DNA from: Leptolyngbya boryana PCC 6306
GTDB lineage: Bacteria > Cyanobacteriota > Cyanobacteriia > Leptolyngbyales > Leptolyngbyaceae
DNA length: 64,000 nucleotides
Assembly (NCBI RefSeq): GCF_000353285.1
Contig: NZ_KB731324.1
Coordinates: 576,577 to 640,576 of the forward strand
Reading direction: 5' to 3'
Shown: positions 47,245-49,689 of the stretch, piece by piece
How the letters are laid out: each line of letters begins with the position of its first letter
Position numbering within the stretch: the first letter of the stretch is position 1
Position numbers and translations under genes: made by a program
The notes under the pieces: generated by a model
What the model was told of the DNA's origin: nothing
What the model saw: the letters and a program-made list of their open reading frames with translations, nothing else
Database searches by the model: none

Positions 47245-47553
47245 TCACTCCTGCCATGATTCAGGAAATTGTGCTTCTAAATCTTGGCGACCATGCAGAA
47301 TTCTAACCACTTCAACTAATTCATCCGTAACGATGTAGAGAACGATGTAATCGTTCAGTAAACCGCCTCGTAAAGTGGGCGCGAGATATCCATAGCTTTT
47401 CCCGATATTTGGAAAGCTAACAATATTGCGACATTTTCGCTCAAATTCGTCTACGAATTTCTCACCAGCGTCAATGCTACGTTCAAGGAAATAATCCAAA
47501 ATGCGGTTAAGGTCTCGACTCGCAGCAGGAGCAATCTGATAGCGGCGAGTCAT
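47245..47553 (-). CDS. RelE/ParE-superfamily toxin
   Basis: 102 residues. The fold signature is Y-Q-I-A-P-A-A-S-R-D-L at the start, a central R-G-G-L-L-N-D-Y-I-V-L-Y and the terminal V-V-R-I-L-H-G-R-Q-D-L. ParE-type toxins inhibit gyrase and RelE-type cleave mRNA; this is ParE-like by its R-x-L-H-G-R-Q-D ending. It overlaps the antitoxin gene by 4 bp and sits directly before the TetR gene. Confidence 0.88.
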   Translation of the reverse strand: MTRRYQIAPAASRDLNRILDYFLERSIDAGEKFVDEFERKCRNIVSFPNIGKSYGYLAPTLRGGLLNDYIVLYIVTDELVEVVRILHGRQDLEAQFPESWQE

Positions 47554-47807
47554 TCTCTTGTACCACGAGCTTTAGCGATTTTGTCTCTCAGTTGCGCGAT
47601 CACAACTTCGCCATCAACGCCTTCGCCTCTGTGCAATTCTGCGAGTCCAACTTGGACATCTTCACGTGCATCTTTAAGCCATCGATCATACTGTTCTCTC
47701 TTCTCTAACAGCTTAAATGCAGCATCAACTACCTCATCGGCATTCTTATACTGTCCAGATTCAACTCTCGCTTGAATAAATTCTTGCTGTTCAGAGTTCA
47801 ATGCCAT
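47550..47807 (-). CDS. ParD-like ribbon-helix-helix antitoxin
   Basis: 85 residues from the ATG at 47807; upstream in-frame ATGs at 47816 and 47813 add up to three. The N-terminal RHH core reads F-I-Q-A-R-V-E-S-G-Q-Y-K-N-A-D-E-V-V-D-A-A-F-K-L-L, and the C-terminal toxin-binding helix is charged (D-K-I-A-K-A-R). It neutralises the downstream toxin and autorepresses. Order antitoxin-toxin-TetR is clear from the overlaps. Confidence 0.85.
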   Translation of the reverse strand: MALNSEQQEFIQARVESGQYKNADEVVDAAFKLLEKREQYDRWLKDAREDVQVGLAELHRGEGVDGEVVIAQLRDKIAKARGTRE

Positions 47808-47856
47808 GGCCATCATCTCGACTTACACTTTCTCATCATGATACAGCGATCATTAG

Positions 47857-47913: not shown

Positions 47914-48896
47914 ATGAACATGCTGCAAGGATCGCCTTGGTTGCTGGTTCATCGATCGATGCTGAAGTCAAATCAGCCGAAAAAGGTATCGCTGTACGGT
48001 CGGGATTATGTCCTCTGGCAAGACTACAAAGGCGAAATTCATGCCTTGTCCAATGCTTGCCCAACATGGGTGCAATGCTGTCTGAAGGCTGGTGCGTGGC
48101 GAAATCTGATGGCAGTAGTACGATTGCTTGTCCTTTGCATGCACTGGAATTTGATCAGACTGGCTCAACGGTGCTACTAGGTTCTAATAAAGCAACGAAA
48201 TCATTGTTAAAACCGCTGGAATTGATCATTCAGGGAGATTTGATTTGGTCTTATGGCGGAGTGGAGCCGAAAATGCCAATTCCAAATGTCTTGAATGAGT
48301 TTGCAGCAAAGTATGAATTTGCTGGAGTTGCAGGAGAGTGCAGTGTCAAAACAGATTTGCTCAGCATGTTGTTAAACATGCACGATTACAACCATCAAAA
48401 TGGAACGCATCGACCTTTATTTGAGATTGAACGGATTGACTTTAAGCGGTTCATTGATCAACGCTTGCATTCTCATTCGTACTATGACATGCCAAGAGCT
48501 CAACCCAAGTGGCAAGACCTTCTCAAAAATCCTGCGTTACTCGAAATGCCAAAAGTCATTCGGGCACATTTAGAAAACTACTTTCCAGCGATCGTGATCT
48601 TTCATGGTGAAGCACCCATCGGAACCATTAAACAGTGTCATATCTTTGTGCCTGAATTTGAGACGCACACACGAACTTATGTCTTAGCTTATGGCAGATT
48701 CAAAAATCCTGTGTTTCGATTGTTGAAAAACAATGTTCTGAAATTCGCTGCAACCGTTGTCGAACAAGATGCAGATATTTTGGGCAAACTCTACGCTGAC
48801 AGTCCGCAACATATCAAACTCAACAATGAAGTTGGTATGGACTGGGTAAGACGCAATTTTGCCAACTTTTCAGAGATGACAAATTCCAGATCTTAG
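47914..48896 (+). pseudogene. Rieske non-haem iron oxygenase, frameshifted
   Basis: The first ~51 codons (frame of 47914) encode a Rieske oxygenase start (G-S-P-W-L-L-V-H-R-S, then Y-V-L-W-Q-D) and reach C-P at 48059-48064. There the Rieske motif C-P-H-x-G should continue, but one base is missing: CCCAACATGGG is seen where CCCACACATGGG is expected. The rest continues in the other frame with G-A-M-L-S-E-G-W-C, the second motif C-P-L-H, the iron site D-Y-N-H-Q-N-G-T-H and a full C-terminus. The mutation removes the His ligand and shifts frame at about 48061-48065. It may be real decay or an assembly error. The family includes pheophorbide-a-oxygenase-like and aromatic-ring enzymes. Confidence 0.85.
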
Positions 48897-48974
48897 CTGC
48901 TAAAACGGAAATGGAACGATCAATTTTGCATGGTTCCCGGATCAAAAGTCGATCTCTCAGCCCTAAGTCTAAGA

Positions 48975-49140
48975 TCTGAAAATCTTTACAAAACTTTACA
49001 ATTAATTTGATTTTCCCCACGCTCTCCACAGACAATCCACAAGTTTTCAAGTTCTTTTCCACACTTTTTCCACACCAAACTGAAAGTTTTCCACAGGAGA
49101 TCGAGCTAAGATCGGCATTTTTCGGCGAACTGTGGATAAG
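48975..49140. other. DnaA-box cluster with AT-rich segment: candidate oriC
   Basis: Three exact TTTTCCACA boxes (49055-49063, 49066-49074, 49087-49095) and one exact TTATCCACA on the reverse strand (49131-49139) lie within 85 bp. Near-matches stand at 49022-49030 (CTCTCCACA), 49033-49041 (CAATCCACA) and 49011-49019 (TTTTCCCCA). Directly left is an AT-rich unwinding-like stretch (48978-49012) with CTTTACA repeated. A further near-match ATTTCCACA is at 49343-49351. TTTTCCACA is the box type used at known cyanobacterial origins. dnaA and dnaN are not in the window, so a DnaA titration site or DnaA-regulated promoter is the alternative. Confidence 0.6.
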
Positions 49141-49464
49141 TCATCGAATCCGGCGAACTGGGCTGAAAATCGCTCAATTTTGTGAAGCCATGTAACGAAA
49201 AAATGGCTGAAACACCGATTCTGCCGTTCAGTAACTTTGATCTAACCGACGAGCTTAACTTTTCTTGATGTTGATCTTCTTGCAGCGATCGCGCAGAATG
49301 TAGCGACTAACCGAAGAGCGCACAGCCGCACCGAAACACACGATTTCCACAACGCACATTTGAGAGGGGAAATCAAGCAGGGGGTCGGACTGGCGTAAGT
49401 TTCTGATGCAAATTTTCAGAAAAACGGATAGTTTCTTCACTCGTTTCACTTCTTGAGGTTTGAT
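49141..49464. other. Spacer between DnaA-box cluster and DUF2811 gene
   Basis: 324 bp without a convincing gene. It holds one more DnaA-like near-match (49343-49351) and the region upstream of the DUF2811 gene. A 34-codon minus-strand frame (49255-49359) was considered and not called. Confidence 0.35.
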
Positions 49465-49689
49465 ATGGATAGCAACATTAGTCTTTTCGTTGAAATTCCT
49501 GAAGCTCTGCATCAATCGTTTCAAACCTTTCTTGATACCCGTCCTGACTGGGATCAAGATCGGGTGATGTCGGCGGCATTGTCATTGTTCTTGTTGCAAA
49601 ACCGTCCTGCAAACGAGCGTCAGAACGATCGACAAACCGCACGGATCTATCTCGATTCGATTTTCAAGCGTCCGGTTGAGCAACTCTAG
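49465..49689 (+). CDS. DUF2811 domain protein
   Basis: 74 residues from the ATG at 49465; a TTG at 49453 is less likely. The whole protein matches the cyanobacterial DUF2811 pattern: I-S-L-F-V-E-I-P-E-A-L-H, P-D-W-D-Q-D-R-V, A-A-L-S-L-F-L-L-Q-N and A-R-I-Y-L-D-S-I-F. GAGG stands a few bases upstream. Function unknown. It sits beside the candidate origin and 51 bp before the RecB-like gene. Confidence 0.82.
   Translation: MDSNISLFVEIPEALHQSFQTFLDTRPDWDQDRVMSAALSLFLLQNRPANERQNDRQTARIYLDSIFKRPVEQL

Follow-up and report, generated by a model that had tools for sequence, protein, structure and literature searches.

What a dense cluster of DnaA boxes does in a gene-free stretch of the genome of Leptolyngbya boryana PCC 6306, with neither dnaA nor dnaN beside it, is not evident from its position. 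The cluster lies in a window of 64,000 nucleotides, the whole stretch of DNA analysed here, which corresponds to positions 576577-640576 of a 6.26-Mb contig in a genome of 7.26 Mb. A preliminary description of this DNA had proposed a replication origin in an unusual gene neighbourhood or, failing that, a locus that titrates DnaA. The evidence presented below argues for a different role, namely the control of a small conserved gene of the DUF2811 family.

The box cluster and its surroundings

The cluster is located in an ORF gap at 48897-49464, which confirms the 568-bp gene-free stretch described previously. All the boxes that had been reported were found (three exact direct boxes, one exact inverted box and several weaker ones), together with further elements. 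The features of the locus are the following, with the positions of boxes also given relative to the last direct box:

48985..49002, plus strand: HLR1-type (RpaB) repeat, zero mismatches to (G/T)TTACA(T/A)(T/A)nn(G/T)TTACA(T/A)(T/A)
49011..49019, plus strand: DnaA box variant TTTTCCCCA, one mismatch, at -76
49022..49030, plus strand: weak DnaA box CTCTCCACA, two mismatches, at -65
49033..49041, plus strand: weak DnaA box CAATCCACA, two mismatches, at -54
49055..49063, plus strand: exact DnaA box TTTTCCACA, at -32
49066..49074, plus strand: exact DnaA box TTTTCCACA, at -21
49087..49095, plus strand: exact DnaA box TTTTCCACA, the last direct box (0)
49131..49139, minus strand: inverted exact DnaA box TTATCCACA, at +44
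49179..49196, minus strand: inverted HLR1-type site, 2 mismatches
49271..49299, plus strand: promoter-like TTGATC-17 bp-CAGAAT (called by sequence only), 184 bp beyond the last direct box; other loci have TTGACA there
49465..49689, plus strand: DUF2811 gene, 74 aa (PF10929, 85.9 bits, cut-off 26.6)

The three exact copies of TTTTCCACA span 41 bp in all (49055-49095), and CTTTACAAAACTTTACA lies at 48984-49000, immediately 5' of the boxes. The repeated CTTTACA previously noticed in this A/T-rich stretch is indeed present, and reads as a perfect HLR1-type repeat, i.e. two copies of (G/T)TTACA(T/A)(T/A) 2 nt apart at 48985-49002, according to the motif definition given in PMC9241938. The preliminary description had not included the 11-bp ladder of the boxes, the RpaB-type sites, the downstream DUF2811 gene or the three further clusters in the genome.

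The exact word TTWTCCACA occurs four times in the 64-kb window against 1.09 expected, a number equalled in 3 of 100 shuffles. For four exact boxes within 85 bp, the Poisson probability is about 2e-13 at the genome rate, and about 1.5e-8 if all possible windows are allowed for. In the 7.26 Mb of the genome, 123 exact TTWTCCACA were counted, compared with 73 for the reversed word. Boxes with one mismatch are not enriched across the window as a whole (26 against 22.35 expected), so that only the cluster is unusual. The boxes are also better conserved than the sequence around them: in an alignment with eight relatives, the 59 box positions were 96% identical to the window, compared with 68% for the other 101 positions of 48985-49144. 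The promoter-like site was 84% identical over the same relatives, which were taken from L011-L022 leaving out L015 (contig end) and L018, L019 and L022 (no anchor). That a short coding sequence starts with the ATG of position 49203 was considered and discarded, because this ATG is missing in several relatives. Within the window, no Rfam family was found at gathering score, and no tRNA.

The site and the chromosomal origin

Genome-wide, TTTTCCACA occurs 74 times, and four groups contain at least three copies within 400 bp. Apart from the cluster in the window, they are:

4074371-4074698: six exact TTTTCCACA, on the same contig as the window; ends 34 bp before the dnaN match
4379881-4380260: five TTTTCCACA; a second DUF2811 copy starts 67 bp behind
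6071199-6071257 (L043:7200-7258): three TTTTCCACA at intervals of 20 and 22 bp, located where a DUF3122 gene begins

The preliminary description had regarded many comparable clusters as an argument against its proposal; the others found are these three, one of them at dnaN and one before the second DUF2811 copy. The dnaN match is at 4074733, 2.8 Mb from the window site, and the cluster beside it is stronger than that of the window, with boxes in both directions and no ladder. An oriC on the dnaN side has been predicted in 55 of 68 cyanobacteria (PMC4674748). In addition, the site in the window has no fixed place relative to dnaN, in that the distance between the two amounts to 0.45 of the circle in this genome, 0.20 in G003 and 0.34 in G006, each contig being taken as a whole circle.

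The GC skew, determined on 40 samples of 20 kb, did not trace a clean V; among the sampled cumulative values, the lowest was at about 2.5 Mb, at neither site. Irregular skews have been reported for many cyanobacteria (PMC7198777), and the present result agrees with this. The window site is probably not the replication origin of the chromosome. A main chromosomal oriC at this position was rejected on account of the dnaN-side cluster, and the origin originally proposed for the window could not be upheld, given the six-box cluster at dnaN and the variable distance from it. The locus shares with the cyanobacterial oriC beside dnaN (PMC4674748) the box word TTTTCCACA and an A/T-rich flank, but dnaN is elsewhere, and the window boxes point in one direction and form a ladder.

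The array before DUF2811 genes in cyanobacteria

DUF2811 was present in 190 of the 194 sampled genomes of the class. Among 165 distinct loci (a 90-locus set and an 80-locus set, minus five shared), at least one exact box precedes DUF2811 in 157 and at least two in 121. At least one exact TTWTCCACA was found within 900 bp upstream of the gene in 29 of the 30 best-scoring loci. For 60 further listed loci, comprising 56 odd rows of the listing (with the present genome skipped) and four even rows, the figures were 56 with at least one exact box and 46 with at least two. No exact box was seen at four of these 60: L171; L152, where the contig extends for 280 bp before the gene; and L192 and L194, which have three and two one-mismatch boxes, respectively. 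In the 80-locus set, i.e. the best 80 of 502, at least one box within 800 bp was present in 77 loci and at least two in 56; the upstream regions held 159 boxes in 63 kb, compared with 20 in 339 kb elsewhere, a density 42 times higher.

Four DUF2811 matches were found in the genome under study. Two of them have arrays, each gene lying behind one of the four box clusters, and the other two copies have no exact box within 1.5 kb. The small genomes of family f2 (1.6-3.0 Mb) contain two or three DUF2811 matches each, implying that the gene has been duplicated there, and some of these copies have few or no exact boxes. A syntenic link with a downstream PD-(D/E)XK gene was considered and rejected, as the 32 loci (of 122) at which this gene was found are all closely related to the window's copy, some of them being counted twice.

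Geometry of the array

The spacing of the boxes is highly regular. In the 90-locus set, direct boxes less than 60 bp apart are separated by 11 (7 pairs), 12 (7), 21 (51), 22 (21), 33 (5) or 44 (3) bp, which accounts for 94 of 94 pairs. The corresponding values in the 80-locus set are 11 (5), 20 (1), 21 (48), 22 (7), 30 (1), 32 (1), 43 (1) and 44 (3) bp. The boxes are on the strand of the gene in 190 of 204 and 147 of 159 cases, respectively. Taken together, spacing and strand place the boxes on nearly one side of the helix. Weaker boxes continue the ladder at -21/22, -32/33, -43, -54, -65 and -76 from the last direct box (measurable in 161 of 170 loci), and an inverted box with at most two mismatches to TTWTCCMCA is located at +44 in 62 and at +45 in 46 of the 161 loci, against about one per offset elsewhere. 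Exact TTGACA was found in the searched range downstream in 141 of 170 loci, 180-189 bp away in 86 of these. The array thus keeps a constant geometry to gene and promoter, the latter being a prediction from its hexamers, as would be expected of a promoter regulated by DnaA.

HLR1-type sites with at most two mismatches accompany the array in 39 of 90 and 62 of 80 loci, compared with about 3 in DNA shuffled so as to keep base composition only; most are inverted and downstream of the boxes. The second array-bearing DUF2811 copy of this genome has no HLR1-type site within three mismatches.

In 161 loci, the DNA 5' of the array is A/T-rich, with 62-68% in bins of 20 bp compared with about 52% further out, and a similar rise, to about 63-65%, is seen downstream. 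A conserved AATTCTTAT adjoins the outermost boxes on the 5' side in 85 of the 161 loci; on the opposite strand, it reads as three NAN trinucleotides, like the DnaA-trios (PMC8287927).

Joint loss of DUF2811, its boxes and dnaA

In the order to which G171 belongs, 389 genomes at least 95% complete were searched for the DnaA box-binding domain, and dnaA was absent from 48 of them. A DUF2811 match was found in only 9 of these 48, three with in-frame stops and six intact, as opposed to 26 of 27 dnaA-containing controls of the same order. Of these controls, 13 were chosen from families that also hold dnaA-less genomes (f31, f32, f34, f35, f46), and all 13 carry DUF2811; the other 14 came from other families, and the sole miss is the draft G366. 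In the class sample, DUF2811 was found in 187 of 189 genomes with dnaA and in 3 of 5 without it, although two of the latter three genomes have a completeness of 62% and 83%. With the misses of the class sample (G060 and G172), the dnaA-containing genomes that lack DUF2811 are three drafts.

A DnaN tree was used to count independent events. It was built from 70 genomes out of 75 (of the five left out, three had no dnaN match; two of the 70 are without a DUF2811 result), and stop-bearing DUF2811 copies were scored as absent. According to the well-supported branches, dnaA must have changed at least 10 times. Of 10 independent pairs, 7-9 show DUF2811 following dnaA, none shows it going the opposite way, and 1-3 show no difference (sign test, p 0.004-0.016), on what is a quick, single-protein tree with several long branches. 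It should be noted that the DnaN N-terminal family, too, had no match at E 0.001 in three dnaA-less genomes (G165, G426 and G285), which is odd for a core gene; the sequence may be diverged.

The boxes follow the same course. At least two exact boxes precede DUF2811 in 16 of 26 genomes with dnaA, against none of the nine dnaA-less genomes that keep the gene or a remnant of it; for at least one exact box, the figures are 24 of 26 and 3 of 9. In evolution, the boxes thus depend on dnaA, and this erosion of the array where dnaA has been lost supports the earlier reading of the cluster as a DnaA site. In the aligned loci of the dnaA-less G171 and G285 (L223 and L221), the promoter block and AATTCTTA, the form in which the AATTCTTAT element is kept there, remain, while the boxes are gone. 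G221, counted as dnaA-less, keeps the weaker boxes before DUF2811 and has eight exact boxes before dnaN; for these reasons, the apparent lack of dnaA may merely reflect a draft that is 95% complete.

Exact boxes within 800 bp before dnaN were found in 11 of 26 genomes with dnaA and in 1 of 44 without it. Among the 14 dnaA-containing genomes with a DUF2811 result and no dnaN-side box, one or more exact boxes precede DUF2811 in 13, and the remaining one (G430) has two one-mismatch boxes there. These genomes may have their oriC in another place, such as next to dnaA.

The joint loss suggests that DUF2811 is of use mainly while DnaA is present. The gene is not useless without DnaA, however, because an intact copy is kept in the dnaA-less G171, G285, G361, G385 and G415. 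Disruption of dnaA in three species that replicate independently of DnaA and oriC has been reported to leave growth unaffected under optimal conditions (PMC7198777). In the order examined here, dnaA is missing in a larger number of families than that report names for free-living species.

The DUF2811 protein and its neighbours

DUF2811 is a short, strongly conserved protein. Its structure models were poor (mean pLDDT 55.1 and 59.2), with an extended start followed by three helices. The searches gave no solved relative (best E 0.08) and no second Pfam family above chance, hence no sequence link to a DNA-binding family. The possibility that it is a ribbon-helix-helix protein was dropped for want of support from models, structures or Pfam. 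The term DUF2811 was absent from the literature searched, a collection from which most subscription journals are missing.

Upstream of the array, a gene for a Rieske/VanA_C-type oxygenase extends over two frames at 47914-48896 and looks broken; among 122 loci, a match to it was found only in L011 and L234, which belong to one genome. A ParE/ParD-type toxin-antitoxin pair lies further upstream, at 47245-47816 on the minus strand.

A proposed DnaA-linked control circuit

The recurrence of the array before DUF2811 and its loss with dnaA point to an unrecognised control circuit linked to DnaA. We consider it likely that the site is a cis-regulatory nucleoprotein site, in which a DnaA-bound array controls DUF2811 and the flanking HLR1-type sites serve for input by RpaB. 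We infer that DnaA occupies the array and affects the transcription of DUF2811, that RpaB binds there, and that DUF2811 has a role in a DnaA-dependent process. DnaA would bind the helically phased row of boxes and the one opposed box, and the phased complex would raise or lower transcription from the DUF2811 promoter, which lies about 183 bp downstream. Through the flanking sites, RpaB would probably add light/redox input. DUF2811, useful mainly in the presence of DnaA, could be either a regulator of DnaA or an effector reporting DnaA activity to another process. The distance of about 180 bp between array and promoter is far for a simple activator, and two further facts about this genome speak against the regulatory reading: two of its four DUF2811 copies have no exact box within 1.5 kb, and the second array-bearing copy is without an HLR1-type site.

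DnaA-box clusters that are not origins and lie outside genes are exemplified by datA, DARS1 and DARS2. Like these loci of Escherichia coli (PMC12371093), the window array is a non-origin cluster outside genes; unlike them, it is linked to one gene and its promoter, and shows no constant distance to the origin in three congeners. The locus is also reminiscent of sda in Bacillus subtilis, whose promoter is activated by DnaA, as are further DnaA-regulated loci described there (PMC4447404, PMC8203912), in that clustered DnaA boxes lie away from oriC and upstream of a very small gene. However, the two genes are unrelated by Pfam naming, and control by DnaA is known for sda but predicted for DUF2811. 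The rigid 11-bp ladder, the opposed box, the RpaB-type sites, the promoter about 183 bp away and the class-wide joint loss further set the DUF2811 locus apart. The perfect repeat of the window resembles the HLR1 elements bound by RpaB (PMC9241938, PMC6331805), but is here paired with a DnaA array. No description of this pairing was found in the titles and abstracts searched, nor one of the DUF2811 array in the titles and opening parts of abstracts on cyanobacterial DnaA boxes and DnaA regulons. The published DnaA ChIP of Synechococcus elongatus consists of qPCR at oriC and one control locus (PMC7198777).

Alternative explanations can be weighed against this regulatory array. The site might act in the manner of datA or DARS, titrating DnaA or changing its nucleotide state, with DUF2811 as a separately controlled neighbour. 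The number and phasing of the boxes and the opposed box do resemble sites of DnaA oligomers, and loss together with dnaA would fit equally well. Even so, we regard such a function as unlikely, because the array keeps DUF2811 and a fixed distance to its promoter across the class and no fixed distance to dnaN in the three congeners, and because DUF2811 itself is lost with dnaA. The titrating locus of the preliminary description thus retains some plausibility, but the link with DUF2811 and the fixed promoter distance fit a regulatory array better.

We consider it very unlikely that the site is an additional or former origin, in which the array and its A/T-rich flank unwind DNA and load the helicase. 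The A/T-rich stretch 5' of the array in 161 loci, the trio-like AATTCTTAT in 85 of them and the array in 13 of the 14 dnaA-containing genomes devoid of dnaN-side boxes would be compatible with this. Yet this genome has a dnaN-side cluster, the A/T content rises similarly downstream of the array, AATTCTTA survives in G171 and G285 despite the absence of dnaA, and the window's own flank is HLR1-like and contains, by eye, no three consecutive trios. It is more improbable still that the repeated word merely resembles a DnaA box and is the site of another protein, such as DUF2811 controlling its own gene. Autoregulation is common, and DUF2811 is small, but the dnaN-side cluster of this genome is made up of the same word, the word is eroded where DUF2811 persists without dnaA, and the protein has no sequence link to a DNA-binding family.

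The regulatory reading of the array bears on two open questions stated in the literature, and makes them testable. As-yet-unknown factors have been inferred to regulate the activity of DnaA in S. elongatus besides its own ATPase (PMC6478999). Standing with RpaB-type sites before one conserved gene, and lost repeatedly with dnaA, the array provides such work with a definite site and a definite gene. As a tentative extension, which we find possible but would not yet favour, DUF2811 could be a missing partner of DnaA in cyanobacteria, a small protein under DnaA control whose feedback acts on DnaA or initiation, while RpaB would couple light/redox conditions to replication at the same promoter. 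If this were true, the DUF2811 circuit would explain the retention of dnaA in species whose replication no longer requires DnaA, considering that the dnaN-side boxes are often gone while the array stays, and that the loss of dnaA usually takes DUF2811 with it.
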